DNA from: a virus
IMG/VR virus record: IMGVR_UViG_3300012920_003795
Location: 1-28,176 of that record
Direction: 5' to 3' (one strand)
Length of the DNA stretch: 28,176 bases
This document shows, one piece after another, positions 2,336-21,593 of the stretch; the stretch's first letter is position 1, and the number at the start of each line of letters is the position of its first letter. The notes under the pieces were generated by a model that was given only the letters and a program-made list of their open reading frames with translations, ran no database searches and was not told the origin of the DNA. Both the position numbers and the translations under genes were made by a program.

Positions 2336-2491
2336 GTGGCCAAGTATGGGCGACATGATACCCGAAACAAAAAAAGAAACAAACACAAGCAATTTGCGAA
2401 AGAAGGATTTAAAGGGAAGTTACATAATGTTGAACAAAAAGAGCGAATCGCCCAAAAATATAATCTTTCAGTATCTAATACTGAACGATGA
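2336..2491 (+). CDS. Small very basic protein with GTG start, hidden under the next gene
   Basis: A 51-residue frame starting with GTG at 2336, with AGGAG at 2324-2328 seven bases upstream, the best ribosome-binding site in this stretch. The product begins AKYGRHDTRNKKRNKHKQFA after the initiator and is strongly basic, like small nucleic-acid-binding proteins of T4-like phages. It overlaps the N-terminal part of the longer frame that starts at 2346. The quality of its Shine-Dalgarno suggests that this is the gene read from here and that the glycosyltransferase starts later. Function unknown. Confidence 0.6.
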   Translation: MAKYGRHDTRNKKRNKHKQFAKEGFKGKLHNVEQKERIAQKYNLSVSNTER

Positions 2492-3275
2492 TCTAGATCA
2501 AAAGAGAGGCCCTATACTGGGTCAATCACGATCTAAGATTTACTCAGAGATGGCAGACATCTCTCGTAAGTCCTTTGAGATATATGCCGATAAGATCGGC
2601 GCAGATTACTTGTATTCAGACGAAGCGGTATTTACTAAAGCAGTCTATGAGAAGGACACTACTGTATCTCTCTACGAATGTCTGAGAGTTATCTACGATC
2701 CATTCTTTGATGACTACGACAAGGTAGCATTCTTTGATACAGACATCGTTGCTAACACTGAAGAGAATATCTTTGATGCTAGTGACGCAGAAGTCTATGG
2801 TGTCTTAGAGTCTGATATCCGAACTTTCCACGGTGGTGGATACAATGGTTGGGATGGAAAACAAAGTGTGTATGAACAATACGTACGCAAGTTTGAGTGG
2901 GGTGGAGTACCTATCGTACCAGCGATGCCACCAAACCATCCATCTAAACTAACCATCATGAACACGGGTGTAGTAGTCTGGACAAAAGAGGCACGCCTAC
3001 GTGCACGTGAGATGTTTGATGATTGGCAGTGGTGGTTCTTCGAAGGCCCACAAGAACACATGTCAACCATGAATGATCAACCGTATATCTCTGGTCAGTT
3101 AGTTAAACATGATTTTGATATCGGTACACTAGACCAGACTTGGAATGATTCACCACACTACGAGACGTTAGAGGAATTCTTTGATATTGCGAAGTTCTGT
3201 CATTACACAGGTGGTGAGTGGAAGGTTGATATGATCCAACATTATCACGATAAAAAGTTCAAAATATTTGAATAA
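2427..3275 (+). CDS. Glycosyltransferase, GT-A fold (GT8-like)
   Basis: About 282 residues if started at the ATG at 2427; the frame is open back to 2346, but that stretch is covered by the basic gene at 2336-2491. An AAGGGA element at 2413-2418 precedes 2427. The key motif is KVAFFDTDIVANTEENIF, whose DxD (about D104 and D106) binds the metal and nucleotide sugar in GT-A enzymes. The later segment SKLTIMNTGVVVWTKEA is the usual acceptor-side strand, and DQPYISGQL resembles the DQ motif of GT8-like enzymes. The protein is cytoplasmic with no membrane anchor. It opens the glycan block and ends just before a promoter. Donor and acceptor cannot be told from sequence. Confidence 0.8.
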   Translation: MLNKKSESPKNIIFQYLILNDDLDQKRGPILGQSRSKIYSEMADISRKSFEIYADKIGADYLYSDEAVFTKAVYEKDTTVSLYECLRVIYDPFFDDYDKVAFFDTDIVANTEENIFDASDAEVYGVLESDIRTFHGGGYNGWDGKQSVYEQYVRKFEWGGVPIVPAMPPNHPSKLTIMNTGVVVWTKEARLRAREMFDDWQWWFFEGPQEHMSTMNDQPYISGQLVKHDFDIGTLDQTWNDSPHYETLEEFFDIAKFCHYTGGEWKVDMIQHYHDKKFKIFE

Positions 3276-3281
3276 AAACGC

Positions 3282-3310
3282 TTGCCAAAAAGGGTAAGAT
3301 GTTGTATTAT
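3282..3310 (+). promoter_or_regulatory. Host sigma70-type promoter before HAD gene
   Basis: TTGCCA at 3282-3287 and TATTAT at 3305-3310 are separated by 17 bases; an overlapping TATAAT at 3308-3313 is an alternative -10. The -35 sits in the context ACGCTTGCC, shared with other promoters in the window. Transcription should begin near 3317-3320, almost on the ATG at 3322. Confidence 0.7.
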
Positions 3311-3321
3311 AATGGTTGAGT

Positions 3322-3915
3322 ATGGAATTTGAAATGAATAGAAACGATCACGAAAAAGTCATTCTGACCGATGTTGACGGTGTCCTCTTAAACTGGGGAT
3401 ATGCGTTCGATATCTGGATGCACCAACATGGTCATGAGAAAGTCAAAGATGTCTATACTGTGAGTGATGCCTACGGTATTACTAGAGAAGCTGGTAAGAG
3501 ATTGACAAGGCAGTTCAACGAAAGCGCCGCCATTGGGTTCCTACCGCCTCTCAGGGACGCTATCCACTATGTGAGGAAGTTACACGAGGAACATGGATAC
3601 GTATTCCACGCAATTACTTCTTTGAGTCTTGACCCTCATGCGGGTGAACTCAGAACACAAAACCTAAAGAAACTATTCGGAGAGACTGCGTTCGAAAGAT
3701 TTGTCTACCTTGACACTGGTGCGGACAAAGACAAAGCTCTGAAGAAGTATAAAGATACTGGATACCTTTGGGTTGAGGACAAAGTCGAGAACGCAAATGT
3801 CGGAGATAAATTCGGTCTAGATAGTGTTGTAATGGAACATGGTTACAACATGGCAGATGAATCTTTCCCAATGATGAAAGGGTGGAAGGACATCTACGAA
3901 TATCTAGAGGGATAA
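3322..3915 (+). CDS. HAD-superfamily hydrolase or phosphatase
   Basis: About 197 residues from the ATG at 3322. The frame also contains TTG at 3316 and ATG at 3334; the promoter at 3282-3313 makes 3316 unlikely, and a weak GGA before 3334 keeps that start possible. Motif I is ILTDVDGVLLNW, with the nucleophile and acid/base aspartates typical of HAD phosphatases. AITSLS supplies the motif II Ser/Thr, a Lys-rich stretch follows, and YLWVEDKVENA gives the acidic motif IV. This matches small haloacid dehalogenase-like enzymes that act on sugar phosphates, nucleotides or phosphorylated DNA ends. It abuts the carbamoyltransferase start, so it may supply or remove a phosphate in the same pathway. 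The substrate is not known. Confidence 0.85.
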   Translation: MEFEMNRNDHEKVILTDVDGVLLNWGYAFDIWMHQHGHEKVKDVYTVSDAYGITREAGKRLTRQFNESAAIGFLPPLRDAIHYVRKLHEEHGYVFHAITSLSLDPHAGELRTQNLKKLFGETAFERFVYLDTGADKDKALKKYKDTGYLWVEDKVENANVGDKFGLDSVVMEHGYNMADESFPMMKGWKDIYEYLEG

Positions 3916-5466
3916 ATGACAAGGTATGTAGGATTTAGTGAGTTCTATCACGATGCGGGCGTATCCGTAATTGAAGAAGATGGAACTGTATCATATGCCA
4001 CCCACGCCGAGCGGTGGTCAAAGAAAAAGAATGATCCGGTAATTCCGGAGAACTTATGGGACTTCATTGGTCAACAAGACGATGAGGTCGTTTCTTTTTA
4101 TGAAGACCACAAGATTAAGTTTGGTATAAGGGGTGGTATTGCCGCTCATGCTGGTGTATACAATAGAGCCACAGGCGATCTATCTGCCGGTGGTGATATA
4201 GTTGACAAAAATGGATACACAAAATCTCTTCGCCATCACGTCAAGATGCCACTCTATGAATCACTGGTATATGACAACCACCACTTACACCATGAATCAC
4301 ATTGTGCGGGGGCACTCTATACCCGTCCTTGGGATTCTCTAGAAGACACTGTCTGTGTCTCTATCGATGGAGCAGGAGAAGTTCAGTGTTCCGTTATCTA
4401 CGATCACAATCTTAAACTAATCAAAGAATGGCACTACCCCAAGTCTATCGGGGTCATCTACGGAATCGTAACAAGGGCACTTGGTCTTAGAGTTCTTGAA
4501 GATGAGTATGTTGTTATGGGACTAAGTTCCTATGGTGAGGATGAGTTCTCTGATTGGATATACAATGAGTATCATAAGTTTAGTGATCATGCACACGAGA
4601 TTGATGCAGGCGTTCTTCTGTCAGGTGGAGAGTCTGCCAGAGAACAACAGAGAGTGCATTTCAGAAATCAACTCATGAAGAAAGTTACGGAAACAAAACC
4701 TGAAAACGCAGCTGCATCCGTACAAAAATTTGCAGAACGTGCCATCATGGAGATCATGGTAGAGGCACGTAAACATGGATCGAAGTTAGTTTACTCAGGT
4801 GGATGTGCACAGAACGTTGTTGCGAACTCTATGATTGCAGACCTATTCGATGAGGTACATATTGCTGTCGCACCGGCAGACTCAGGATCATCTCTGGGAG
4901 CGGCCGCAAAAACATGGGCAGAAGCAACCGGAAAGGATAAACTTATCTGGACTCCATACTTAGGGACTAATATTGATCGTGAGATTAATCCAAAAGAAGT
5001 TGTAGATCACTTGTTATCAAAGAAAGTTTGTGGTGTTGCAAACGGACGTGCAGAGTTTGGCCCACGTGCACTAGGTAATCGATCCCTAATTGCAGATGTT
5101 CGGTATGATGTCAAAGACACAGTAAACGAAATCAAACGCAGACAGAAGTATAGACCCTTCGCTCCTGCTATTCTAGAGGAGTATGTGGATGATTATTTCG
5201 AAGGTTATACAAACGAATACATGCAGTTCACATCAAAGGCACTGCATGACTACAAATCCGTTACACACGTAGACGGTACTGCACGTGTCCAAGTCGTACG
5301 CAAAGATTGTCAATCGATATTCAGACAGATAATTGAGGAATATTATGAGCGTACTGGCGTCCCAATGTTACTAAATACTAGCCTGAACATCCGTGGGAGA
5401 CCAATGGTTGATGATGAGAAAGATGCGAAACTTTGGGAGAGTAAATATAATGTCAAGGTGTTCTGA
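3916..5466 (+). CDS. Carbamoyltransferase, NodU/CmcH/TobZ family
   Basis: A 516-residue enzyme that would move a carbamoyl group from carbamoyl phosphate, through a carbamoyl-adenylate, to a hydroxyl on a sugar or other small molecule. The N-terminal ASKHA (Kae1-like) domain shows YHDAG at 11-15, the histidine-rich metal site NHHLHHESHCAGA near 121-133, SIDGAGE near 149-155 and VVMGLSSYG near 199-207. The C-terminal YrdC-like half shows GRAEFGPRALGNRSL, YRPFAPA and LLNTSLNIRGRPMV. All expected blocks are present and the length is near the family norm. The ATG directly follows the HAD stop. In bacteria these enzymes decorate Nod factors and antibiotics; a viral member has been reported to make carbamoyloxymethyl-cytosine in DNA, so the acceptor here is open. 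Confidence 0.93.
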   Translation: MTRYVGFSEFYHDAGVSVIEEDGTVSYATHAERWSKKKNDPVIPENLWDFIGQQDDEVVSFYEDHKIKFGIRGGIAAHAGVYNRATGDLSAGGDIVDKNGYTKSLRHHVKMPLYESLVYDNHHLHHESHCAGALYTRPWDSLEDTVCVSIDGAGEVQCSVIYDHNLKLIKEWHYPKSIGVIYGIVTRALGLRVLEDEYVVMGLSSYGEDEFSDWIYNEYHKFSDHAHEIDAGVLLSGGESAREQQRVHFRNQLMKKVTETKPENAAASVQKFAERAIMEIMVEARKHGSKLVYSGGCAQNVVANSMIADLFDEVHIAVAPADSGSSLGAAAKTWAEATGKDKLIWTPYLGTNIDREINPKEVVDHLLSKKVCGVANGRAEFGPRALGNRSLIADVRYDVKDTVNEIKRRQKYRPFAPAILEEYVDDYFEGYTNEYMQFTSKALHDYKSVTHVDGTARVQVVRKDCQSIFRQIIEEYYERTGVPMLLNTSLNIRGRPMVDDEKDAKLWESKYNVKVF

Positions 5467-5489
5467 AATGACAATAAAAGGAAAACACT

Positions 5490-5819
5490 ATGACAGAAGA
5501 AGAAGTCAAAAAGTCGGGGTTTCATCCCGCAGATAGTAATGGTGATGGTAAGATATCACCTGAAGAAGAAAAGATGTATTTGGAATTTAAGAGAAAAGAG
5601 CTTGAAGATGCAGACGCAATGCGTGACGCACAAAGATCAATGGCATGGTTTTCTCTTTGGGGAATGTTACTCTATCCAGTAATGGTAGTGGGTGCAAACC
5701 TAGTGAAATTGGATAGTGCCTCTAAAATCCTTGGCGATATGGCTGGGGTATACTTTATTGCTGTTGCTGGTATTGTGGCGGCATTCTTTGGTGCACAGGC
5801 ATTTACAAACAAAAAGTGA
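5490..5819 (+). CDS. Two-helix membrane protein with EF-hand, possible holin
   Basis: A 109-residue protein starting at ATG 5490 after an AAAGGA ribosome site. Residues 15-26 (DSNGDGKISPEE) form a complete 12-residue EF-hand loop with D, N, D, K, S and E at the calcium positions. A charged helix follows, then two hydrophobic segments near residues 50-70 and 84-104. Similar EF-hand plus two-helix proteins occur in marine T4-like phages without known function. Size and topology fit a class II holin, and no better holin was seen near the endolysin or the spanins. That role is an inference; a membrane scaffold for the neighbouring sugar enzymes is equally possible. Confidence 0.75.
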   Translation: MTEEEVKKSGFHPADSNGDGKISPEEEKMYLEFKRKELEDADAMRDAQRSMAWFSLWGMLLYPVMVVGANLVKLDSASKILGDMAGVYFIAVAGIVAAFFGAQAFTNKK

Positions 5820-5825
5820 GTATAA

Positions 5826-6734
5826 ATGATACAAGTTACATGGAGAGGCACGCCGGGAGTCGGTGATTTTATGATGGCTTTGAATGCATGTCACCAACAT
5901 GCGTTCACATGTAACGATAAAATAGAACTCACAATGCATTGGGAACATGATGAGAAGTATCTACATCATTTCGAAGACCCTGAAACTATCATTGAACGAA
6001 TGGAGTACATTCATAACTTCTACCATCGAAAAGATGATGTAGAGGTCAAACATGTATTTGAAAGTAAAGATAGGTATTCTGATTGGTCTTGGAAAGATGA
6101 TATTAAAGTTGTAAATGGAATACCAACGATACTTCATCCCAAAGAACTAGGCAGACCGGACGATATGGTCAGTAAAACTAGATATTGGTTTAGTGACGGA
6201 AGATATATCGACGGTGATGGGCATCAAAATACACCTGAAGGTAATGCACCACATAACCACTGGTTATTTCGAAAGGATGCTTTTCAAGATACAGACAAAC
6301 AGAAAGTTGTAGTCTGGACACCTGTGTCTAATGCCGAAAATCCTAGATGGTGGAAAAGAAAATTGACACCTAACGATTGGCGTGTTATAATAGATAAAAT
6401 ACGCCGACAGGGGATGAATGTAATTGAATTAGATTATAGAACACCTGTACGTGAAGCGATGTATCATATATCAAACTGTAGATTGATAGTTTGTTATGAT
6501 GGTATGTGGCACTATATGGGAGCCAACTTTGCAAAACCTATGATAGTAGTGAGTAAAGAAGGCGTCACTAAATATCACACTCCACACTGTGTTAGAGTCT
6601 GCCCTGATACACAAGAAGAAGAAAACATCTGGTGGTGGTTAGATAGACCCAACGACCTTTTTGGTCATCCAAAAAAGAAAGCGGTTGAATACGAAAGAAG
6701 TTTACGACATATATATGAGACAATTAGAAATTGA
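5826..6734 (+). CDS. GT-B-like glycosyltransferase (GT9/heptosyltransferase-like)
   Basis: A 302-residue protein starting MIQVTWRGTPGVGDFMMALN; the Gly-rich segment after strand 1 is where GT9 enzymes such as LPS heptosyltransferases hold the acceptor. The C-terminal part, near residues 212-242 with HISNCRLIVCYDGMWHYMGA then KPMIVV, copies the GT9 pattern in which an Asp-Gly and a His bind the nucleotide sugar (usually DSGPxHxAxAxxxP). It contains many Trp and His. No membrane segment is present. The similarity is one of pattern, so the family assignment is tentative. Its last 20 bases overlap the start of the next small membrane protein gene. Confidence 0.65.
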   Translation: MIQVTWRGTPGVGDFMMALNACHQHAFTCNDKIELTMHWEHDEKYLHHFEDPETIIERMEYIHNFYHRKDDVEVKHVFESKDRYSDWSWKDDIKVVNGIPTILHPKELGRPDDMVSKTRYWFSDGRYIDGDGHQNTPEGNAPHNHWLFRKDAFQDTDKQKVVVWTPVSNAENPRWWKRKLTPNDWRVIIDKIRRQGMNVIELDYRTPVREAMYHISNCRLIVCYDGMWHYMGANFAKPMIVVSKEGVTKYHTPHCVRVCPDTQEEENIWWWLDRPNDLFGHPKKKAVEYERSLRHIYETIRN

Positions 6735-6906
6735 TTTTAACAAACCCAGAGATGCCACACCAGAAGAAGTGGCAGAGTGGTATGAGACTGAGTTAAAGCC
6801 TCAGGGTGATAATGCAATGAAAATGGTTGTATACGCAACTATAATTCAGGCCACAGCATTAGGTTTCATGGGTTTGTGTATGTATGTAATAGGATTAGCA
6901 ACTTGA
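6715..6906 (+). CDS. Small single-pass membrane protein
   Basis: A 63-residue protein with start ATG at 6715; the frame is open back to a TTG at 6661, but that part lies inside the previous gene and has no ribosome site. Residues 1-35 are charged (MRQLEIDFNKPRDATPEEVA) and residues 37-60 form one hydrophobic helix. It overlaps the preceding gene by 20 bases and the radical SAM start by the TTGA at 6903-6906, so it is embedded in a coupled operon. It could anchor the neighbouring enzymes at the inner membrane, but no function is recognised. Confidence 0.65.
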   Translation: MRQLEIDFNKPRDATPEEVAEWYETELKPQGDNAMKMVVYATIIQATALGFMGLCMYVIGLAT

Positions 6907-7874
6907 AACCTATATCAATCGATAGAGCAGTCATCGAAATAAACGGTGGTTGTAATTATTCGTGTAGTATGTGTCCTCAAGATAGACGAACAGGTGGACG
7001 TGATAAAAGATTCCTCGCAAAGATGAGTCTTGAAGAATTTGAGAAGAATGTCATCGACTGTAAACAACATGGTCTACGTGTTGTCAACCTTGAAGGTTCA
7101 GGTGAACCTACTCTAAACAGAAACATGCCTGAGTATATCAAGATCGTAAAGAAACACGGTGCAAGTTGTTTTGCATTCTCTAATGGATTTCGTATGGAAG
7201 GTAAGTTCATGAGAGACTGTGTAGATGCTGGTCTTGACTTTTACAGATTCTCGTTTATCGGATCAGATGAACAAGACTACAGTAAGTGGATGCATAATAC
7301 AATCTCAGGTCACTACCATAAGATCAGAGAAAACATTCAAGAAATGGTGAAGTATGTAAAGGAGAGTGGTAGCAAGTGCGTCATTGCAACCTATCACTTA
7401 ATCACCGACAATGAAAATATCGAGAAGGAACTTGAACAATACAAGGAACTAGTACATGAACTTGGAATCAAAACAGAAATCTGGAAGATGCACAACTGGA
7501 GTGGAGTCTACAAACCAACCTACGGAAGAGAAGGTAAGGTTAAGACATGTGGTCGCCCTTTCTCTCCTGACGTTGTTATTCGTGCTGGTGGTCTGGAAGG
7601 GAAGCGAGGCGCAGTCGCACCATGCTGTCAAGTGCTTGGAAGAGATGAAGAGGCCGTGCTTGGTCATACCTCTACCAACACTATAGAAGAAATTATCCGT
7701 GGAAAAGAATACTCCGCATTGAGGGAAGGACACAGAACAGGAAACTATCCTGATTACTGTAAGTCATGCGACTTCCTGATTGATGATCCTGAAGTTCTCG
7801 TATGGACAAACCATGAAAGAGACCTATATAAAATGCATGGCACAGAATTCGATCTAAACGATTATAGGGAATGA
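6903..7874 (+). CDS. Radical SAM/SPASM-type enzyme
   Basis: About 323 residues if translation begins at the TTG at 6903, which overlaps the previous stop as TTGA and follows AGGA at 6891-6894; a GTG at 6876 is also in frame. The CNYSCSMC motif (C17, C21, C24) binds the 4Fe-4S cluster that cleaves S-adenosylmethionine. NLEGSGEPTLN is the SAM-binding GGEP-like motif. A C-terminal set of cysteines (about C216, C241, C242, C286 and C289) fits a SPASM or twitch domain holding extra Fe-S clusters. Such enzymes modify peptides, sugars or cofactors by radical chemistry. Its place between glycosyltransferases suggests sugar dehydration, epimerisation or methylation, but the substrate is unknown. Confidence 0.88.
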   Translation: MKPISIDRAVIEINGGCNYSCSMCPQDRRTGGRDKRFLAKMSLEEFEKNVIDCKQHGLRVVNLEGSGEPTLNRNMPEYIKIVKKHGASCFAFSNGFRMEGKFMRDCVDAGLDFYRFSFIGSDEQDYSKWMHNTISGHYHKIRENIQEMVKYVKESGSKCVIATYHLITDNENIEKELEQYKELVHELGIKTEIWKMHNWSGVYKPTYGREGKVKTCGRPFSPDVVIRAGGLEGKRGAVAPCCQVLGRDEEAVLGHTSTNTIEEIIRGKEYSALREGHRTGNYPDYCKSCDFLIDDPEVLVWTNHERDLYKMHGTEFDLNDYRE

Positions 7875-7875
7875 T

Positions 7876-8106
7876 ATGACTAAACTAATCAATTGGATCA
7901 AGACTTTACTTCTCGAAGAGTACGAGTTGACTGTATGGTACAAAGGTGGTACGGAGTTTGATCCTAAGACCACTAAGAGAGTTTACAGGTTAAAGTCTAT
8001 ATCCAAGAAAACGCAAACGCATTTCAAGGGAACCATGATGAATGGACATACTCTTGAAATCAAAACAACAGAACCTTTTGACTACCAGATAGAAAAGATT
8101 TATTAA
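7876..8106 (+). CDS. Conserved small phage protein
   Basis: A 76-residue protein starting at the ATG one base after the radical SAM stop. The N-terminal MTKLINWIKTLLLEEYELTVWY is amphipathic, the middle is basic, and the end ETKxxEPFDYxIxKIY-like pattern (here KTTEPFDYQIEKIY) matches a short beta-rich protein I recall from marine T4-like phages. There is no catalytic motif. It sits between the radical SAM enzyme and a glycosyltransferase, separated by 1 and 2 bases, so it is co-transcribed with them. Function unknown. Confidence 0.7.
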   Translation: MTKLINWIKTLLLEEYELTVWYKGGTEFDPKTTKRVYRLKSISKKTQTHFKGTMMNGHTLEIKTTEPFDYQIEKIY

Positions 8107-8108
8107 TT

Positions 8109-8894
8109 ATGAAAACATTGATATATCAGGTTGCGGTGGGCAAACCATCGAAACTATATGAACACTGTATTGAGAGTGTAGGTAATTACGCAACAAAGAT
8201 CGGATCGGATCACATTGTTTTAACTTCACCTAAACTTAGAATCAAACCTGATCCATTTAACTCTGGTCGATCCCGTGAATCATGGGAGAAGTACGGTGGG
8301 TATCTACCTATCTATGAGAAGGAGAATGCATTCGACTATCTCGAAGATTACGATAAGATCGCCATCATAGATGCAGACATCTACATACGTCCGAATGCAC
8401 GTAACATATTCTTAGAGATGGATTGTGAATGTGCGTTTGGTTGTGTCTTTGAACGTGAGATGGACTTACAATCTTGGTATCAAAAAAAGATTATTAACTA
8501 TTCTCAGATGCAGTACGGTCAGTTACATAGTAACAAAACCGACTTCAAACCAAATGAACTAGGATTTGAATTTGCTAACATGGGTATGATTCTACTCAAT
8601 AGTAAGTTATTTCTACCATATCTAAAAGGACAAACTGCAAGACAATTTATTGAACGTTCGGAGTTCAAAAACTTTGTAGATGGTGTGGGTACATGGAAGT
8701 GGTCAACAGATCAGACTTTGTTGAACTTCTTTCTAAAGAAATACAATATACCTACTACACACCTTAACCCTACATTCAACGGACTGTTCAGTGCAGTCAA
8801 CAATCTTGAGGAATGCGACTTCGTACATTTCTTCCTAAAGGACAAGTTACCTAATAGTGGAGAGAACGTCGAAGAACTCATGAAACAAATATGA
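8109..8894 (+). CDS. Glycosyltransferase, GT-A fold
   Basis: A 261-residue soluble protein. The segment YDKIAIIDADIYIRPNARNIF contains a DxD (D88 and D90) in the position and sequence setting of GT8-like glycosyltransferases. FANMGMILLNSKLF is the typical strand after the catalytic core, and WSTDQTLLNFFL carries the DQ element that in GT8 enzymes lies near the donor site. The same layout is seen in the proteins at 2427 and 16684, so the three are probably distant paralogues. Its end overlaps the next start by ATGA at 8891-8894. Linkage and donor cannot be assigned. Confidence 0.8.
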   Translation: MKTLIYQVAVGKPSKLYEHCIESVGNYATKIGSDHIVLTSPKLRIKPDPFNSGRSRESWEKYGGYLPIYEKENAFDYLEDYDKIAIIDADIYIRPNARNIFLEMDCECAFGCVFEREMDLQSWYQKKIINYSQMQYGQLHSNKTDFKPNELGFEFANMGMILLNSKLFLPYLKGQTARQFIERSEFKNFVDGVGTWKWSTDQTLLNFFLKKYNIPTTHLNPTFNGLFSAVNNLEECDFVHFFLKDKLPNSGENVEELMKQI

Positions 8895-9661: not shown

Positions 9662-9664
9662 ATA
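9657..9664 (+). promoter_or_regulatory. T4-type late promoter (TATAAATA)
   Basis: An exact T4 late -10 consensus TATAAATA followed by ATAG, overlapping the stop of the previous gene. It lies 36 bases before the ATG at 9701, leaving a leader of roughly 30 bases that contains AGGAG at 9690-9694. The 12-base string TATAAATAATAG recurs at 19479. Confidence 0.75.
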
Positions 9665-9700
9665 ATAGCACTACATTAAGAGCGTGAACAGGAGAATCCT

Positions 9701-10399: not shown

Positions 10400-10400
10400 A

Positions 10401-10973
10401 ATGAAAATTGGACTCACTCAAAGAGTCCAATTGCTTTCAGAACAGTCAGGGATCACAGGTGATTTTACCGATCATAGTTGGTATGTGTCACCTCTGACTA
10501 AAGATCATGAATTGATACCCGTTCCGAATCGATTGGACTTAGATTATGATGAACTTGCTGAAGAGTTAGACCTACTCATAATCACAGGCGGTAGAAACGA
10601 AGATGTTCGTGTCATTACCGAAACAGAACTCTCAACCTCAATGGTCTCTATGGGTAAACCCGTATTGGGTATTTGCCATGGTGCGTTCTTACTTACCTCA
10701 ATATTAGGTGGTGACGTAGCACCAGAGAAAAAGAATCATTTCTTTTCAGAACACCAAGTTTGGTATAGAGGAATGCCTAAGTGGGTCAATAGTTTCCATC
10801 AACCATACATAAACGAAAAACCTTCCGGTGCAGCTGTGCTTGCAACAGACCCCGAAGGTGATTGTGAAGCTTGGATAAAAGATAATATCTGTGCAATCGT
10901 ATGGCATCCCGAAAGGATGTTAGAACCTTTTGTACCTGAAGAAATACTTGAAGCAACAGGATTGACATTATGA
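10401..10973 (+). CDS. Class I glutamine amidotransferase-like protein
   Basis: A 190-residue protein of the GATase1 / peptidase C26 type. The nucleophile elbow GICHG contains Cys92, and the WHPE segment holds His169 and Glu171, completing the Cys-His-Glu triad; LIITGG near 59-64 is the oxyanion strand. Such enzymes release ammonia from glutamine for a synthase partner or hydrolyse gamma-glutamyl bonds. It starts one base after the diiron gene and overlaps the cupin gene by ATGA at 10970-10973, so the three are coupled. No synthase domain is fused to it; the partner could be a neighbour or a host enzyme. Confidence 0.87.
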   Translation: MKIGLTQRVQLLSEQSGITGDFTDHSWYVSPLTKDHELIPVPNRLDLDYDELAEELDLLIITGGRNEDVRVITETELSTSMVSMGKPVLGICHGAFLLTSILGGDVAPEKKNHFFSEHQVWYRGMPKWVNSFHQPYINEKPSGAAVLATDPEGDCEAWIKDNICAIVWHPERMLEPFVPEEILEATGLTL

Positions 10974-11644
10974 AGAATTTAATTTCAGATGAAACAGTTT
11001 GGTGTGAAGACGTTTGGAGATTTGGTGTTCGACATTACAAATCTAAAACCCATGATCACCAAGTAACTTTACCTGAGTTCGATGGAACTCGTTACATCAT
11101 AGCACACAACTGTGCCATTAGTACCGCAGTTATGAAGACTAATATCTTTGGTAGTGTTGCTATGCAAACAACACAAACTCCGCATATCAAGATGCTCAAA
11201 GATTCTTTCTTTGTTGATATCATGTTTCCCGGCTTGCAATTAAACGAAGATAAGGTATATCACATACCAAATCATCCTACCGGAAACTTATCATATATGG
11301 ATGGTGGTACAAACTCTACTGCAATCGAACCCGCACGTATGGGTCTGCCTGTAGTAAACTATGTGCACTTTCCTGAAGGTATGAATCAAACTCTACACAC
11401 CCATCCTAGTCAACGTATTGGTCTGATACTATCAGGTACAGGCGCAATTGAGTTGAACAATAATAAGTATTTCAGTTTAGCGAAAGGAACTGCATTCTGG
11501 ATGGATAGAAATGAACTACATAATTTTATGTGTAACAGTGGTGACGATGTAACCCTGTTTGTCTTTGCACCTGATTCAGGTATGGGGCCTACAGATGAAG
11601 TCAACCCTTTGAAAGCGAGAACCTATATTGGACAAACAAGATAA
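10970..11644 (+). CDS. Cupin-domain protein
   Basis: A 224-residue protein with a C-terminal cupin barrel. The first cupin motif is seen at TLHTHPSQRIGLILSG (H143, H145, R149), and the second around KGTAFWMDRNELHNF (H184), giving a three-His metal site with Arg where many cupins have Glu. The N-terminal 130 residues are unassigned and may form a second, degenerate cupin. Cupins here could be sugar isomerases or epimerases, dioxygenases or binding domains. It is coupled to the amidotransferase upstream and overlaps the next gene by 17 bases. Confidence 0.8.
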   Translation: MKNLISDETVWCEDVWRFGVRHYKSKTHDHQVTLPEFDGTRYIIAHNCAISTAVMKTNIFGSVAMQTTQTPHIKMLKDSFFVDIMFPGLQLNEDKVYHIPNHPTGNLSYMDGGTNSTAIEPARMGLPVVNYVHFPEGMNQTLHTHPSQRIGLILSGTGAIELNNNKYFSLAKGTAFWMDRNELHNFMCNSGDDVTLFVFAPDSGMGPTDEVNPLKARTYIGQTR

Positions 11645-12260
11645 AAAACTTATTATCATAACAGGCCCTCAAGGGTCTGGTAATCACTTATTCAGTAAAA
11701 TCTTTGCACTTCATCCAGATGTACAAGGATGGGACTTTGGTCACAAGTACTGGATACCTAGTGATGAGGAACCCTTTGCAGACGCATGGGTAGACGCTAC
11801 TAAAACAAAAAAGTTTCTGACAGACGATCTCATGGTCGCAAATGTCAGTGTACCATTTGTATATGATGGTGAAAAAAGAATTCCTGCCATCCAAGAAGTT
11901 GTGTATGAAGCACAGGATGCTGGATATAACGTTACGGTGTGTGTGATCGCTAGAGATCGCAACATTAATACACTACAACAAACACGAGTACGTGGTGAAG
12001 AAACACTGCCTATAGCATTACAGTATTATCGTTGTTTAGATGCAGACATGGCCTATCTCTCTCATGAGACATTGATGTTACATAAGACCTCGTACTTAAG
12101 ATGGGTGTCTAAGTATTTGGACTTTCCTATTGCAGTAGATGACAATAGAATATTCCAGATACTTGCGACAGATGAAAACGCAAAGTACGTTGAGTACGTA
12201 GAGAATCACTGGTTAGATAAACATGTCTGGATGGGAATTCAAAAAAAGAACCTCAGATAG
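11628..12260 (+). CDS. P-loop protein, sulfotransferase-like (first of a pair)
   Basis: A 210-residue protein beginning at the TTG at 11628, the only plausible start before the P-loop. The segment LIIITGPQGSGNHLFSKIF is a phosphate-binding loop of the type used by sulfotransferases for PAPS; VTVCVIARDRNINTLQ could be the strand carrying the 3'-phosphate site. An adjacent pair of such proteins (this one and the next) is, from memory, a recurring arrangement in marine T4-like phages. A kinase or another P-loop NTPase is possible, as the canonical Lys of Walker A is replaced by Asn. It overlaps both neighbours. Confidence 0.6.
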   Translation: MDKQDKKLIIITGPQGSGNHLFSKIFALHPDVQGWDFGHKYWIPSDEEPFADAWVDATKTKKFLTDDLMVANVSVPFVYDGEKRIPAIQEVVYEAQDAGYNVTVCVIARDRNINTLQQTRVRGEETLPIALQYYRCLDADMAYLSHETLMLHKTSYLRWVSKYLDFPIAVDDNRIFQILATDENAKYVEYVENHWLDKHVWMGIQKKNLR

Positions 12261-12828
12261 TTACCTATTGATGACAGGTGCGCCCGGCTCTAGATGGAGT
12301 GGGGTGGCAAATGGCATCTACGCATCTGTTGATTTCGATCATACGGACTCTTCAGGTGAGAGAAGTTATTCTCATCACAACGGACTTGTACATGGGGGCG
12401 CATACTTTGACCCAGAAATGGAGTTTGAGTTTCGCAAGGACAGGTGGGATCGTCCTTTCTCAGGTGACGGTGTTCGCCTGATTAAATCTCATACTTTAGC
12501 AACTCACCTATCAAACTATAGGAAGTACAATATAATTATGGTGTATCGCAACAGTTGGGATTGTTGGAAGTGGTGGAACGAATGCGGTGGTTTTGATATT
12601 GCGTATCCAAGTTATAAGTGGTACAGAAATCAAGATCGAATGTACGAACAGATTCAGTTACAAAATCAAGGGATAATGAGGTTCATATATAACTATAGAG
12701 AAAATGTAACAGAATGTGCAGATAATTATGAAGTGCTCACCACATTAGGAATGAACTTCACAGGTGTGAAGATAGAAGAGTACAAAGAGAAGGATTTGAA
12801 AGTTTATGTCTATCAACCCTCACATTAA
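12223..12828 (+). CDS. Sulfotransferase-like protein (second of a pair)
   Basis: A 201-residue protein. LLMTGAPGSRWSGVAN (about residues 15-30) is a 5'-phosphosulfate-binding loop, and NIIMVYRNSWDCWKWW (about 103-118, R109) resembles the 3'-phosphate-binding strand and helix of sulfotransferases. The substrate pocket is rich in Trp, Tyr and His, as in carbohydrate-acting enzymes. It overlaps the preceding P-loop gene by 38 bases and the next methyltransferase by 23. The role proposed is transfer of sulfate from PAPS to a glycan hydroxyl. The family is divergent, so the call is moderate. Confidence 0.65.
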   Translation: MSGWEFKKRTSDSYLLMTGAPGSRWSGVANGIYASVDFDHTDSSGERSYSHHNGLVHGGAYFDPEMEFEFRKDRWDRPFSGDGVRLIKSHTLATHLSNYRKYNIIMVYRNSWDCWKWWNECGGFDIAYPSYKWYRNQDRMYEQIQLQNQGIMRFIYNYRENVTECADNYEVLTTLGMNFTGVKIEEYKEKDLKVYVYQPSH

Positions 12829-13354
12829 GTTCTTAACGGACTATTTTACAAATACGTGGCCTTCGTCACGAACTGCGGGTCTGGATAATTATTACTGGAC
12901 TGGATTTAAATTAATAGATGAAATCAAAGAAAACGAACGTGTCTTGGATGTCGGTTGTGGAGTTAATCCTTTTAAGCGGCATATTCCTAACCTTGTTGGT
13001 ATTGATATCACCAACATAGGTGCGGACGAAGTGTGTCCAATCGAAGAGTACGAACTAATTGATATGTACGAGGAAAAGTATGACGTTGCGTTTTGTTTGG
13101 GTAGTATTAACTTTGGGAGTATGGAACTGATCGATCTCCAGATCGAAAAGATTGTAAACTGTCTCAAAGAGAAGTCAAGAATATATTGGAGATGTAACCC
13201 CGGCCATAGAGATCATGGCAACGACAGAGTCGGTGAAGTTCCGTTCTTCAATTGGTCACTGGATGACCATGTATTTTTCTCTAACAAATACGGTTATACA
13301 ATAACAGAGTTTATGCCTGATAGAAATAGGATGTATGTGAAATGGGAACGTTAA
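12806..13354 (+). CDS. SAM-dependent methyltransferase (class I)
   Basis: A 182-residue Rossmann-fold methyltransferase. ERVLDVGCGVNPF (residues 44-56) is motif I that binds S-adenosylmethionine; NLVGIDIT is the acidic loop after strand 2; YDVAFCLGSINFG is motif IV. The C-terminal half with FFNWSLDDHVFF resembles the cap of small O- or N-methyltransferases. It is short for the fold but complete. It overlaps the sulfotransferase-like gene by 23 bases and the next methyltransferase by 13. Most likely it methylates a sugar hydroxyl or amine of the phage-made glycan; DNA or protein cannot be excluded. Confidence 0.85.
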   Translation: MSINPHIKFLTDYFTNTWPSSRTAGLDNYYWTGFKLIDEIKENERVLDVGCGVNPFKRHIPNLVGIDITNIGADEVCPIEEYELIDMYEEKYDVAFCLGSINFGSMELIDLQIEKIVNCLKEKSRIYWRCNPGHRDHGNDRVGEVPFFNWSLDDHVFFSNKYGYTITEFMPDRNRMYVKWER

Positions 13355-13971
13355 GAGAATTATTTGATAAACATGGTTCGGATAAAGGATCGAAGAAACA
13401 CAAATATGATAGGTGTTACGAAGAATTCTTTGAACCTGTAAGAAACGATGAGATCAATCTTCTAGAGATTGGTTGTTTTAAAGGAGAGAGTACAACTGCA
13501 TTTCGAGAGTACTTCCCTAATGGAAACATCTACACTATCGATATCTTCGAAAGACATTCCGCTGAATCTATTGATGCGCTTAAAAAAGATCGTGTACATT
13601 GGTTGAAACATGACACCATGCATAAGGCACTTCCTCTAGCAATTAGAAAAGAATGGGGAGATATTGAGTTTGACTTTATTATCGATGATGGAGCACACTT
13701 CCCTATTGCTAACAGACTCACATTTGAGAACTGTGTGCAATTCCTAAAAGAGGGTGGATCGTATTTCATTGAAGATGTCTGGATGTTAGGTGGTGAAGCA
13801 GAATCAAAACAAGTAGTGAATAATAACTGGGTCAAACGTAAACCCATCATGTATGATGTTCAAGAACATTATCGTATGCTCGATACCATAAGAGAATGGG
13901 GTGATGTAGATCATTACGACTTTACAGGAAAGGGTGGGTATCCAGACGGATACATTTTGAGAGTATCATGA
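13342..13971 (+). CDS. SAM-dependent methyltransferase, MycE-like type
   Basis: A 209-residue class I methyltransferase. The opening LFDKHGSDKGSKKHKY and motif I LLEIGCFKGES (residues 40-50) are typical of sugar O-methyltransferases related to MycE and other antibiotic-tailoring enzymes. FIIDDGAHF holds D115, D116 and H119, the metal and catalytic site in that group. It overlaps the preceding methyltransferase by 13 bases and the following sulfotransferase by ATGA. The resemblance to MycE, which methylates a sugar on a macrolide, supports action on a sugar. The acceptor is unknown. Confidence 0.85.
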   Translation: MGTLRELFDKHGSDKGSKKHKYDRCYEEFFEPVRNDEINLLEIGCFKGESTTAFREYFPNGNIYTIDIFERHSAESIDALKKDRVHWLKHDTMHKALPLAIRKEWGDIEFDFIIDDGAHFPIANRLTFENCVQFLKEGGSYFIEDVWMLGGEAESKQVVNNNWVKRKPIMYDVQEHYRMLDTIREWGDVDHYDFTGKGGYPDGYILRVS

Positions 13972-14660
13972 TAGAGAAGTTATTCATCCATATCCCTAAG
14001 AACGGTGGAATGACTATTCGTAGGAATAGAGTTCTGAGACCAAAGGTTATCTTATCGACTCCAGATGTTCACAAGGATCGTGAGTATACTCGTGGTCTTG
14101 AAAGAAAGATGAATGAGACTGGAGATCATGTTGGATACGAACACGCACGTTGGAGAGACCTGAATCCTAAACTCACTAATAATGTACAGGCATTTGCATT
14201 TGTTCGTAATCCTTGGGATCGTGTTGTATCACGTTATTGGTTTGCAAAGAAAGTTATTGAGATCGAAAAAGAATCAGATCACTACGGTGAAACAGATTAT
14301 GCAGACACATCATCATTTGAAGCGTTCCTAGAAGAACGTCACAAGTGGGGTGGTCAAGAGTATATGTGGCATCGTGCAATTAGAAACTGGTATCCAGCAT
14401 TTGATCACGTTAGTGATCGCCATGAGACAGTAAAATGTGATATACTACGTTTCGAAAATTACAATGAAGATATTCGTGCGTATATGAATATTGCATTCGA
14501 TCCTCAACCAAGGAACGTGACTGCTGTATATAACGAACCGTATCAACAGATGTATACAGAAAAGACTAAACAGATAATCGCAGATTGGTATCAGAAAGAT
14601 ATTGATTACTGGGGTTTTGATTTTGATACTGGGGCGACAAAGAACTACTGGCAACCATAA
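13968..14660 (+). CDS. Sulfotransferase (Sulfotransfer_2 / carbohydrate type)
   Basis: A 230-residue enzyme and the clearest sulfotransferase of the window. FIHIPKNGGMTIR (residues 6-18) is the 5'-phosphosulfate loop of the PAPS site, and FAFVRNPWDRVVSRYWF (residues 76-92) is the 3'-phosphate site with R80 and S88 in canonical spacing. This HIPK...RNPWDR...S.Y pattern is that of eukaryotic HNK-1-type and bacterial carbohydrate sulfotransferases. It would move sulfate from PAPS to a sugar. It overlaps the methyltransferase upstream by ATGA, and its TAA shares a base with the next ATG (TAATG), so the set is coupled. No membrane anchor is present, so it acts in the cytoplasm. Confidence 0.9.
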   Translation: MIEKLFIHIPKNGGMTIRRNRVLRPKVILSTPDVHKDREYTRGLERKMNETGDHVGYEHARWRDLNPKLTNNVQAFAFVRNPWDRVVSRYWFAKKVIEIEKESDHYGETDYADTSSFEAFLEERHKWGGQEYMWHRAIRNWYPAFDHVSDRHETVKCDILRFENYNEDIRAYMNIAFDPQPRNVTAVYNEPYQQMYTEKTKQIIADWYQKDIDYWGFDFDTGATKNYWQP

Positions 14661-15619
14661 TGCATGATGCACTACACAATGTAACTGAGGCGATAGACTT
14701 GGCAAATAAAGTTGAACAACCAGAACCAACTCAAGTTGGATTAGATGGTAAACGTCATATCAAGGCGTTGATCATTACTCTGACTAATAATGGTGAAGCA
14801 ACTGCACAAGCACGTCGATTGATTAAAAGTATTCATGAGACTAAGTCACAGATCAATCCTCTTATCATGGATGCATCTACACCAGAGACCGCAAAAGAAG
14901 GTCTTGCATCTATCACCTACAAAGATTTTAGAAAAGCACCGTGGACATGGCCGATCCAGTCATCGCATGACGGTCTTGATATCAAAACAGGCCTGTACAG
15001 AAAAACGTACAGAGCAAACGATCATCGTAAAGTAATTGCATGTATGGTCTCGCATATGAGAGCATGGCAATACTGTATTGATGTAAACGAACCTATCATG
15101 GTTCTAGAGTCAGATGCAATGTTCTTCCGCAAGTTCAAGTGGGAACAGTTGGTCGATCCAAAACCCATAAAACTAAATGACACTTTCTTTGGTGCGTGGA
15201 GACAAACCAAGGAACTACAAGTACTCCAATGGAGTGAGAAAGAGAAATTTGTAAACCTAGAAAGTAGGATCAACAAAAAACCAGACACAAAATTCACTGG
15301 TGGTATATTAGGTCTCAACTCACCTATCGGTGCTACTCGTAAGTCAAGTGTATTTCACAATGCACTGTTTGGTAAGTACGGGTTCCATAAGGTTCCGTCT
15401 GTAGATCAGATGGGAGACGATCCTTTACCGCAAGGTCTAGCAGGGAACTCTGCATATGTACTCAAACCTTGGGCTGCAAAGAAACTACTAGATAAAGTAG
15501 AAGAAATTGGAATGTGGCCTAATGATGCATTGATGTGTAAACAATTCTTTCCGTGGATGCAAGTCTGCTGGCCGTACTACACTGTATTACAAGGGGGACA
15601 GTCAACAACGACTGGTTAA
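14660..15619 (+). CDS. Glycosyltransferase family 25-like protein
   Basis: A 319-residue protein. The GT25 signature is present: CMVSHMRAWQYCI followed by PIMVLESDAMFF, with S131-H132 and the metal-binding ExD (E150, D152), then GNSAYVLKPWAAKKLL and WPNDALM, matching the LgtB/LpsA type of LPS glycosyltransferase. The first 35 residues have no match to that fold and could be an extension or reflect a later start. GT25 enzymes commonly transfer galactose or similar sugars during LPS outer-core synthesis. It is joined to the sulfotransferase upstream by TAATG. Confidence 0.87.
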   Translation: MHDALHNVTEAIDLANKVEQPEPTQVGLDGKRHIKALIITLTNNGEATAQARRLIKSIHETKSQINPLIMDASTPETAKEGLASITYKDFRKAPWTWPIQSSHDGLDIKTGLYRKTYRANDHRKVIACMVSHMRAWQYCIDVNEPIMVLESDAMFFRKFKWEQLVDPKPIKLNDTFFGAWRQTKELQVLQWSEKEKFVNLESRINKKPDTKFTGGILGLNSPIGATRKSSVFHNALFGKYGFHKVPSVDQMGDDPLPQGLAGNSAYVLKPWAAKKLLDKVEEIGMWPNDALMCKQFFPWMQVCWPYYTVLQGGQSTTTG

Positions 15620-15621
15620 AC

Positions 15622-15798
15622 ATGGGCGAATGGTTATACAAAAAATTAGCACCATATCGTGAGTGGCAAGATACACTACCGTTATGGAAAAGGATACTCG
15701 TAGAATTACTGGGTATTATTATTATCACCTCACCGTTCACACTATTCATTTGGTGGTTGACAGGTGAGACTTATATATTTCTTCCGGTGGCACAATGA
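15622..15798 (+). CDS. Small membrane protein
   Basis: A 58-residue protein starting at the ATG at 15622, two bases after the GT25 stop; the frame is open further upstream, but only inside that gene. A charged N-terminal helix with EWLYKKLAPYREW is followed by one long hydrophobic segment (about residues 25-47, LVELLGIIIITSPFTLFIWW). There is no strong ribosome site, so re-initiation from the GT25 gene is likely. It overlaps the next gene by ATGA. Function unknown; it could be a membrane anchor or a holin-like protein. Confidence 0.6.
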   Translation: MGEWLYKKLAPYREWQDTLPLWKRILVELLGIIIITSPFTLFIWWLTGETYIFLPVAQ

Positions 15799-16037
15799 AA
15801 CATAGAACTAAACTTATTTTAATAACAATATTATTTACCTTGGTCGCACTTTGGCCAATGGATACTCTCGCACACTCTTCATACTGTGATGGATTTTATG
15901 AAGGATATAAAATGGTAAAAGGTGAATTCGTAACACTACCAATATGTCCGATAGAACCAACAACGCCAGTTGGGTCTACTCCGTTCAGAGAAGGGTTTAA
16001 GATGGGTATTAAATGGGCAATGAGGGAAGTTGCGTGA
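15795..16037 (+). CDS. Small secreted or periplasmic protein
   Basis: An 80-residue protein with a clear signal peptide: Lys/Arg start, hydrophobic core near residues 7-20 and a likely cut after TLA at residue 26. The mature part holds two cysteines (C31 and C51) that could form a disulfide, and two similar pieces, DGFYEGYKMVKG and REGFKMGIKW. It is the only predicted periplasmic product within the sugar block. It overlaps the previous gene by ATGA and the next by GTGA, so it is made with the glycosyltransferases. The role is unknown; a superinfection or envelope function is a guess. Confidence 0.65.
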   Translation: MKHRTKLILITILFTLVALWPMDTLAHSSYCDGFYEGYKMVKGEFVTLPICPIEPTTPVGSTPFREGFKMGIKWAMREVA

Positions 16038-16687
16038 AGGCATATGTAATCACAATCAAAGACAATGAGAAGTCTGTAGAGGCAGCTAAACGTTGTATTG
16101 AGTCTGGTAAGAAGTGGGGTGCAGATATTGAAATGTGGACTGCAACAACACCACAAGACGCACCACGTGGAATTGCAAAAAGAAAAGGTTTTGCAGTAGA
16201 AGGATTCGAAGAGGTGTACTCACGTTTCGATAATTGTCTAGCCGCATTTTGTTCACACTATTCTCTCTGGGAACAATGTCTCAAACTGAAACAACCTATC
16301 ACAATCTTTGAACATGATGCAGTAGTGACGGATCAGATTCCTGAGAGACCATTCAAAGGTGTTATGAATATAGGTGCACCAAGTTACGGTAAGTTCAATG
16401 AACCTCAACACTTTGGTGTAGGGCCTTTGACAACCAAAAGATATTTCCCCGGCGCTCATGCGTATCAGATCACACCAGCGGGTGCAAACGAACTTATAAG
16501 TAATGCGAAGATGGGAAAGGCAAGACCCACAGACGTGTATATAAATCTTGACATTTTCCCTTGGTTGCAAGAGTTCTATCCTTTTATCGCAAAAGCAGAT
16601 GATAGTTTTACTACAATTCAGCGAGAAAGGGGATGTTTAGCAAAACACAATTATGGCGATGACTATAAAATTGAGAAGGTGACATGA
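16034..16687 (+). CDS. Glycosyltransferase family 25-like protein
   Basis: About 217 residues from the GTG at 16034, chosen because it overlaps the previous stop as GTGA and follows GAGGGAAG at 16022-16029; an ATG at 16013 would add seven residues but has no ribosome site. MKAYVITIKDNEKS is the usual GT25 first strand. SHYSLWEQCL (S74, H75) and PITIFEHDAVV (E93, D95) repeat the GT25 signature, and GAHAYQITPAGANELI matches the later conserved strand. It is a shorter relative of the protein at 14660. Likely a sugar transferase of the same glycan. Confidence 0.85.
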   Translation: MKAYVITIKDNEKSVEAAKRCIESGKKWGADIEMWTATTPQDAPRGIAKRKGFAVEGFEEVYSRFDNCLAAFCSHYSLWEQCLKLKQPITIFEHDAVVTDQIPERPFKGVMNIGAPSYGKFNEPQHFGVGPLTTKRYFPGAHAYQITPAGANELISNAKMGKARPTDVYINLDIFPWLQEFYPFIAKADDSFTTIQRERGCLAKHNYGDDYKIEKVT

Positions 16688-17373
16688 TAGAAAATCTTTT
16701 CATTACAGGGTGTGACCGCAACACAGAGTGGCAGTTACCTTGGTTCTGGGAAAACTACAGTGAGTACAATGATACTCCATTATTATTTGTAGACTTTGGT
16801 GTATCCGAAGGAACAAAAGAATGGGTCAAGTATCATATCGGTGAATCTATGTTGCTTCCAGAACAAGAATATAATGTCACTGCACAAGAGATGAACAAGA
16901 AGAGTTGGTTCAAGAAACCATCGGCAATGGAATCATCCTGTGGACGTGCAAAGAAAGTCTGTTGGTTAGATACTGACTGTCAAGTGTTTGGTGATATCTC
17001 TGGTATCTTCGATCTCACTGTACCGAATAAAATCTGTATGGTAGAAGATAGACCGTGGACAAAGAGACGTGGTGAGTATGGCACTTGGTACAATTCAGGT
17101 GTTGTATGTTGGGAAGGTAAACCAACTATCCTGAGTGCATGGAAAGAGATGTGTATTACTCAGGGATGGCATGGTGACCAAGAAACTTTATATGCCATGA
17201 TGGGTGGTGATGAGATCATGAAAATGTCAATCATAGAACCATTACCGCATAAATATAATACGTTACGGTTAGATTACACTGATAAGATCGCCGTAAAGAA
17301 TCCCTTGATCGTACATCATACAGGTGACAAGGGAAACAAAGTTATAAAGGAGCAAATCAATAATGTTCAGTAA
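16684..17373 (+). CDS. Glycosyltransferase, GT-A fold (GT8-like)
   Basis: A 229-residue protein. KVCWLDTDCQVFGDISGIFD carries the DxD (D96, D98), WYNSGVVCWEG is the strand after it, HGDQETLYAMM the DQ element and LIVHHTGDKG the His-containing loop near the donor phosphates; together these give the GT8-like order seen at 2427 and 8109. It overlaps the GT25 gene upstream by ATGA and the i-spanin gene downstream by 11 bases. It closes the main glycan block. Confidence 0.83.
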   Translation: MIENLFITGCDRNTEWQLPWFWENYSEYNDTPLLFVDFGVSEGTKEWVKYHIGESMLLPEQEYNVTAQEMNKKSWFKKPSAMESSCGRAKKVCWLDTDCQVFGDISGIFDLTVPNKICMVEDRPWTKRRGEYGTWYNSGVVCWEGKPTILSAWKEMCITQGWHGDQETLYAMMGGDEIMKMSIIEPLPHKYNTLRLDYTDKIAVKNPLIVHHTGDKGNKVIKEQINNVQ

Positions 17374-21280: not shown

Positions 21281-21282
21281 GG

Positions 21283-21546: not shown

Positions 21547-21585
21547 ATTTATAATCCTTGGTTTGAAAAAAAGTTACCTTTTTTC

Positions 21586-21593
21586 TATTTATA
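21586..21593 (-). promoter_or_regulatory. T4-type late promoter on minus strand
   Basis: TATTTATA on the + strand reads TATAAATA on the minus strand, 39 bases before the ATG whose first base is 21546. This leaves a leader of about 30 bases with AAGGA. It would drive the two minus-strand genes late. Confidence 0.75.

Follow-up and report, generated by a model that had tools for sequence, protein, structure and literature searches.

The window analysed here is an entire IMG/VR virus record (IMGVR_UViG_3300012920_003795), a fragment of 28,176 bases, and genome-wide statements are taken from its relatives. At positions 2427-17373 it carries a block of enzyme genes that consists of two joined modules. 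Module A (2427-8894 and 13968-17373) is, on the families found in it, well supported as a glycan-building gene set, credibly for a glycan of the lipopolysaccharide (LPS) type. Module B (9701-13354) is an independently travelling unit, separable from module A, with a conserved late promoter site in front of it. The explanation to which we give most weight, with confidence somewhat short of even, is that both modules feed one product, a decorated glycan made late in infection on a cytoplasmic acceptor, with virion fibres a likelier acceptor than host LPS. The IMG/VR records used for comparison are fragments of unknown completeness, and function is read throughout from protein families, genomic context and promoters. 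Genes are named by their first position.

Two joined modules in one enzyme block

The initial annotation described a pathway of about fifteen kilobases that builds and decorates a single glycan. The block itself is real: all of the genes described lie on the + strand, profile searches recovered the catalytic families, and the gene order is kept across dozens of IMG/VR loci of related T4-like (Kyanoviridae-type) phages. The closest long relative, a contig of 147,636 bases (G001, also L004), has the same block order and a gp32-like protein 93% identical to that of the window, and the nearest named relative is Phage C48C1 (OQ984149), filed as Kyanoviridae. Within 8109-17373, nine junctions overlap (-1 to -38 bases), and most of the remaining gaps measure 0-40 bases. 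The median ratio of nonsynonymous to synonymous change (pN/pS) against orthologs is 0.19-0.51 for all 21 genes tested. Purifying selection and the kept gene order together argue that the block is not a chance arrangement. Residues that are invariant across relatives include the DxD or ExD motifs of five GT-A glycosyltransferases (GTs), the carbamoyltransferase signature, the cysteines of the radical S-adenosylmethionine (SAM) enzyme and its SPASM domain, the amidohydrolase triad and the cupin histidines.

The proposal of a single glycan pathway holds for the glycan core, with its six GT-type genes and with sugar-nucleotide genes elsewhere in the genomes of relatives. There is less support for the further claim that every tailoring gene acts on one glycan, because 9701-13354 recurs in distant phages that lack the glycan core and is preceded by a conserved late promoter site of its own. 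Four genes were missing from the earlier list, those for the diiron oxidase-like protein (9701), the class I amidohydrolase (10401), the cupin (10970) and the HAD protein (3316).

Module B and its distribution

Module B and the promoter site at its start comprise the following features.

9657-9664, + strand: T4-type late promoter sequence TATAAATA, with the 9701 start 44 bases downstream
9701-10399, + strand: diiron oxidase-like protein (heme-oxygenase/ferritin-like fold), from an invariant ligand pattern and the predicted fold
10401-10973, + strand: class I glutaminase-type amidohydrolase; Cys92, His169 and Glu171 invariant; closest family gamma-glutamyl-CDP-amidate hydrolase
10970-11644, + strand: cupin-domain protein, facultative; PF07883 at 9.6e-8, metal-site histidines invariant
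11628-12260, + strand: P-loop protein ST1; GPQG(S/A)GNH loop and R109-Q117-R120 invariant or nearly so in 21 sequences
12223-12828, + strand: P-loop protein ST2; PGS-x-WS loop and R109 invariant in 20 sequences
12806-13354, + strand: SAM methyltransferase MT1; VLDVGCG motif invariant, PF13489 at 0.0035

The oxidase is the slowest-evolving gene measured (median pN/pS 0.19). Residues E50, E83xxH86, E143, E147 and E173xxH176 are invariant in its family, and mean column identity is 88%. Its structural model has a predicted local distance difference test (pLDDT) score of 88 and weakly matches the folds of UndA, CADD, PaaA and AetD (E 0.02 and up); the UndA, CADD and PaaA matches reach probability 1.0 despite E values of 0.02 or more. 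For the amidohydrolase, all 21 family members match NF045546, with a best value of 2.2e-31 versus 3e-14 for GMP synthase; the window's own protein scores 37.7 bits to NF045546 against a cut-off of 250, level with its score to GMP synthase.

Evidence for the separability of module B came from a scan of IMG/VR with the oxidase alignment, which returned 237 relatives. At 44 distant loci, where the oxidase is 59-70% identical, the amidohydrolase is present in 43, ST2 and MT1 in 35 each and ST1 in 27, and the glycan core is present in three. In the 20 of these loci with at least 4.5 kb of sequence on both sides, the corresponding counts are 19 for the amidohydrolase, 19 for MT1, 18 for ST2 and 12 for ST1; 19 of these loci lack glycan-core genes altogether, and the remaining one has fewer than three. 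In most distant loci, MT1 is encoded on the other strand. About 26 distant loci add an oxygenase-like gene, usually directly after ST2 and, in one locus (L320), within the same open reading frame (ORF) as ST2; the only match of its product among phage records is a Synechococcus phage 2OG-Fe(II) oxygenase (3e-6, over part of the length). Ten module B neighbourhoods contain a gene resembling adenosine 5'-phosphosulfate (APS) kinase, with PF01583 over its cut-off in 9 of 12 distant module-bearing records, and in two sampled copies the second half matches a HIGH-type nucleotidyltransferase.

Two different oxidase queries found no match among 50,697 annotated phage records, and ST1 had no match in the phage-record collection, which includes S-SSM6a. 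Among 84,980 genomes of bacteria and archaea, a scan found two oxidase relatives, one of them on a T4-like phage contig. The other (L162) is a GTDB contig of a Nitrosopumilaceae metagenome-assembled genome, possibly a misassembly or contamination. It was rejected as an archaeal copy of module B, as phage genes are apparently joined to Nitrosopumilaceae genes in one contig, and it thus gives no evidence for a cellular origin.

A conserved late promoter site

The exact TATAAATA octamer was found upstream of oxidase homologs in 26 of the 27 close regions and in 5 of the 29 distant ones, counting distinct upstream regions, where 0.0043 would be expected per region; it lies mostly 35-62 bases upstream. 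The binomial P value for this result assumes independent loci, which is untrue, and the octamer excess does not depend on it. Other TATAAATA sites in the closest long relative stand mainly before structural genes. On the established logic of T4 late promoters, module B and the genes reached by read-through (MT2, the sulfotransferase, the GT25 pair and a GT8 gene) are probably expressed late, because the site is conserved here and elsewhere is found mostly at structural genes.

The same octamer also occurs elsewhere in the window. At 19512-20423, a gene for a Zeta-toxin/AAA_33-type kinase, kept in G001, has the late-promoter octamer upstream. Two exact TATAAATA sites, separated by 40 bases, stand before a pair of opposite-strand genes at 20420-21593 that is kept in G001 and C48C1.

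The glycan core and its tailoring genes

Module A comprises three GT8-like genes, two GT25 genes, one GT9-like gene of the GT-B fold, a carbamoyltransferase, a radical SAM/SPASM enzyme and one confirmed sulfotransferase. These are listed with the other genes that lie among them or next to module B; PAPS stands for 3'-phosphoadenosine 5'-phosphosulfate.

2427-3275, + strand: GT8-like GT-A glycosyltransferase, module A; PF01501 at E 0.019, DxD invariant in 32 sequences
3316-3915, + strand: HAD-type protein of PHROG 420; phrog_420 at 1.1e-34, HAD DxD motif invariant
3916-5466, + strand: NodU/TobZ-type O-carbamoyltransferase, module A; PF16861 at 5.8e-47, PF02543 at 4.6e-30, phrog_1601 at 4.1e-79
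5490-5819, + strand: small protein with an EF-hand-like loop (EF-hand 4.5e-4, below cut-off) and, by eye, hydrophobic stretches
5826-6734, + strand: GT-B-fold, GT9 (heptosyltransferase)-like glycosyltransferase, module A; AlphaFold pLDDT 88, no Pfam match
6715-6906, + strand: small ORF overlapping the end of the GT-B gene, with one hydrophobic stretch read from the sequence
6903-7874, + strand: radical SAM/SPASM enzyme, module A; PF04055 at 3.8e-15, PF13186 at 3.9e-7
8109-8894, + strand: GT8 glycosyltransferase, module A; PF01501 in 18 of 20 family members (best 9e-6), DAD motif with both D invariant
8891-9661, + strand: P-loop protein, possibly sulfotransferase-like; YPSGxGGMFLTEL motif conserved in 5 sequences, no family match
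13342-13971, + strand: SAM methyltransferase MT2; PF13578 at 2.8e-7, phrog_21658 at 1e-17
13968-14660, + strand: PAPS-type sulfotransferase, module A; PF03567 at 2.7e-7, over cut-off, phrog_3347 at 1.9e-8
14660-15619, + strand: GT25 glycosyltransferase, module A; PF01755 at 7.6e-13, ExD invariant
16013-16687, + strand: GT25 glycosyltransferase, module A; PF01755 at 1.5e-9, EHD invariant
16684-17373, + strand: GT8 glycosyltransferase, module A; PF01501 at 1.4e-5, DTD invariant

The first gene lies in an ORF at 2346-3275, and the start at 2427 given earlier is an internal ATG (M28). This start is favoured by relatives: the G001 protein begins MSKEKEGSVKNLIFQY, and the window protein read from M28 begins MLNKKSESPKNIIFQY. 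The family profile of this gene scores 94.8% against the 8109 family and 88.6% against the 16684 family (hhalign). For the GT-B protein, the top folds in the PDB are TibC, WaaF and WaaC, all weak (E 2e-3 and up, TM 0.41-0.48). The GPRALGNRS and HH-x-SH residues of the carbamoyltransferase are invariant. The radical SAM gene has 388 relatives in IMG/VR, which prefer a TTG start at 6903, and its CxxxCxxC and SPASM cysteines are invariant in 38 sequences. PDB profile searches with the 9701, 5826, 8109 and 18730 families gave no significant match.

Genes for sugar nucleotides were found in relatives, outside the block. G001 encodes a UDP-glucose/GDP-mannose-type dehydrogenase, an NAD epimerase, a further GT25-like gene, a weak GT2-like match and two more sulfotransferase-family genes, one of them below its cut-off. 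In C48C1, an annotated nucleotide-sugar epimerase adjoins a UDP-glucose dehydrogenase, and the epimerase family is present outside the block in 8 of 11 relatives. The initiating transferase PF02397 and the flippase PF01943 were found in 0 of 11 relatives, with positive controls detected. APS kinase (PF01583) was likewise found in 0 of 11 block-bearing relatives with positive controls. The sulfate donor would therefore need to be supplied by the host, and phage-made PAPS was rejected for these relatives on the missing kinase.

Of the several sulfotransferase-like genes reported earlier, only 13968 could be confirmed; both of its PAPS-binding loops are conserved (HIPKNGGMTIR and RNPWDRVVSRY). 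The 8891, 11628 and 12223 proteins gave no significant sulfotransferase match in family, PDB or profile-profile searches where tested. All three have a P-loop, and an arginine loop with sulfotransferase-like spacing, possibly a 3'-phosphate loop, is present in 11628 and 12223 only. With a deepened family, the top PDB profile match of ST1 (11628) was a tyrosine sulfotransferase, but its E of 0.45 is not significant. Profile-profile comparison with 13968 gave a probability below 5% in every pairing, and the three proteins were not accepted as sulfotransferases on that test.

Tail fibres as candidate acceptors

The fibres of relatives are very long, repetitive and rich in Ser, Thr, Tyr and Asn. 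The G001 fibre has 1,144 amino acids (positions 2775-6209, L167) and the C48C1 fibre gene encodes 3,347 (141011-151054, L183), with repeats of the YTRTSTRTS or GNYSRTF type running over hundreds of residues. Among the 50,697 phage records, this type of repeat is confined to C48C1, as are the GT-B gene and any close homolog of the radical SAM gene. A repetitive fibre was present in all 14 block-bearing (radical SAM) records tested, and all three records longer than 130 kb that were selected by their fibre carry the radical SAM gene. Sequons for N-glycosylation were tried as an acceptor signal and rejected: G001 has N-[FY]-S/T at 33/63 versus D-[FY]-S/T at 3/36, but over 55 fibres the values are 35% and 36%. 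A search for collagen-like Gly-X-Y acceptors for the GT25 pair found none of note.

What the block may make

In the mechanism that we propose, module A would use UDP-sugars of both host and phage to assemble, in the host cytoplasm, a short oligosaccharide of the LPS type. The sugars may include a uronate, to judge from the UDP-glucose 6-dehydrogenase of relatives, and module A would also carbamoylate and sulfate the oligosaccharide. Module B would carry out an oxidation through the diiron protein (in other phages, also through the 2-oxoglutarate oxygenase), hydrolyse a gamma-glutamyl amide, methylate, and move a small group by means of its two P-loop proteins. Its product would probably decorate the glycan of module A, because in this lineage module B sits inside the glycan operon behind the late promoter. 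The acceptor would most likely be a late cytoplasmic protein, with the Ser/Thr-rich repetitive tail fibres as the best candidate; the evidence for a late promoter, and the lack of export genes among the families sought, lead us to lean that way. Several observations weigh against this explanation. Enzymes of the GT9, GT8 and GT25 families also typically build LPS cores. Module B functions in other phages that lack module A, and a glycan need not be its substrate. The fold matches of 9701 and 5826 are both weak (E above 0.001), in the window none of the module A genes upstream of 9657 has its own late promoter octamer, and N-x-S/T sequons are not enriched in the 55 fibres. The co-occurrence of fibre and block fits glycosylation of the fibres but is equally explained by common ancestry within one phage group.

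The presence of LPS-core families (GT8, GT25 and GT9-like) in module A also supports modification of the host envelope, in which module A would extend lipid A-core or an O-chain in the cytoplasm for export by the host, blocking superinfection or the re-adsorption of progeny. Comparable cyanophage clusters have been interpreted in this way by their authors (PMC7824862), and an outer-spanin-like lipoprotein close to the block implies a Gram-negative host. The late promoter lies within the block, whereas phages usually exclude rivals early in infection, and neither of the export families sought (PF02397, PF01943) was found; we regard this alternative as doubtful. Slightly less probable again is that module B is an independent pathway for a small molecule or a nucleotide-activated group (for example, phosphoramidate-like, or sulfuryl on a 3'-phosphonucleotide) and only happens to be located in the glycan operon. 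The 19 of 20 full-flank loci without glycan genes are consistent with this, as are the closest family of the amidohydrolase, matched by every member, and the APS-kinase-family genes of distant carriers, including the two copies with a nucleotidyltransferase-like second half. Against it, APS kinase is absent from the 11 block-bearing relatives of the window, the glutamine-kinase family (PF01326) is over cut-off in 0 of 15 records and NTP_transf_3 is present in one, and one module-bearing locus (L161) has a dehydrogenase-like ORF near the module that by eye resembles UDP-glucose dehydrogenase. Hypermodification of phage DNA bases by the amidohydrolase, P-loop proteins, methyltransferase and glycosyltransferases is very improbable. 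Known systems of that kind do contain glycosyltransferases, carbamoylation, P-loop kinases and oxygenases, and module B adjoins DNA polymerase genes in some contigs. However, thymidylate synthase/dCMP hydroxymethylase (PF00303) was found in 0 of 11 relatives, TET/JBP not having been searched for, the promoter is late rather than early, and six glycosyltransferases exceed the needs of one base.

Comparison with known systems

Iyer and colleagues described LPS clusters in P-SSM2 and an amino-acid/sugar cluster in S-SSM6a (PMC7824862). Module A is a further variant of the cyanophage LPS/O-antigen cluster. Like the 15-gene P-SSM2 cluster (PMC7824862), the block has contiguous GT genes of several families together with sugar-modifying enzymes in a Kyanoviridae-type genome. 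P-SSM2 also has carbamoyltransferases, although that of the window is only 30% identical to them. Unlike in P-SSM2, the epimerase and dehydrogenase of block-bearing relatives lie elsewhere in the genome (no NAD-dependent epimerase/dehydratase was seen among the ORFs of the window), and the block has the GT8/GT25/GT9 set. The named relative C48C1 shares a common core in the order lysozyme, GT8-like gene, carbamoyltransferase, GT-B gene, radical SAM gene, SNase and 18730 gene; nothing in its corresponding region matches module B, either methyltransferase, the sulfotransferase or the two GT25 genes. The C48C1 record gives no host.

No match to the oxidase or to ST1 of module B was found in T4-like cyanophages with LPS clusters. 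The 10-gene secondary-metabolite cluster of S-SSM6a (PMC7824862) resembles the block in bringing together carbamoyltransferase, methyltransferase, cupin-like, oxygenase and HAD genes; unlike module B, it has no diiron oxidase, amidohydrolase or P-loop pair described. Module B has types of chemistry (oxygenase, cupin, methyltransferase) in common with S-SSM6a and P-SSM2 but not the genes, as far as these were tested. With the O-methyl phosphoramidate pathway of Campylobacter jejuni (Cj1415-Cj1418; PMC11800397), module B has one or two enzyme families in common: it has a methyltransferase and an amidohydrolase related to the Cj1417 family, although the window's own protein scores far below the cut-off of that family. 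Unlike that pathway, it has an additional oxidase, cupin and P-loop proteins. Distant carriers of module B (9 of 12 records, against 0 of 11 relatives of the window) also have a kinase of the APS-kinase family, to which Cj1415 belongs. The L-glutamine kinase family PF01326, which we take to cover Cj1418, is lacking from the 15 records and the cytidylyltransferase family is essentially absent from them; module B was rejected as a member of the C. jejuni pathway on the missing glutamine kinase.

Neighbouring genes

The window also encodes PhoH, lysozyme, DUF6433 and the gp32-like protein. An overlapping spanin-like pair at 17363-18137 consists of a coiled-coil protein, with a hydrophobic stretch at its N terminus, and a lipoprotein. 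The latter, at 17712, is outer-spanin-like, and its lipobox (LMTSAC, read from the sequence) is what implies a Gram-negative host. Directly after the lysis cassette, a gene at 18730-19359 is kept in C48C1 and many relatives. Its product has a GNG...CGH.A...YGFD pattern, with weak MptE-like (PF01973) matches in 3 of 18 relatives, which suggests an MptE/Maf- or GT42-like transferase. Beside gp32, at 26263-27428, lie two adjoining oxygenase-like genes, prolyl-hydroxylase-like by eye, and the pair is kept in G001. At 67338-69251 of G001, an AMP-dependent ligase adjoins a QueC-like PP-loop protein, and the two may form another small biosynthetic unit.

Implications

Sugar clusters have been recognized in marine T4-like phages for two decades, and to our knowledge what they decorate is still unsettled. 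The late promoter site, the candidate fibre acceptor and the short gene list make the target of decoration testable in this lineage. It is possible, though we would not call it probable, that module B is a new phage-restricted biosynthetic system in which a diiron oxidase, a gamma-glutamyl-amidate hydrolase, a 2-oxoglutarate oxygenase, two P-loop group transferases and a methyltransferase would make a previously unknown group of the phosphoramidate, sulfuryl or amine type and attach it to virion glycans or to another late phage product. Because the oxidase of module B has 237 matches in IMG/VR versus none in the 50,697 annotated phage records, the module may be a common metabolic unit of phages that has so far been overlooked.

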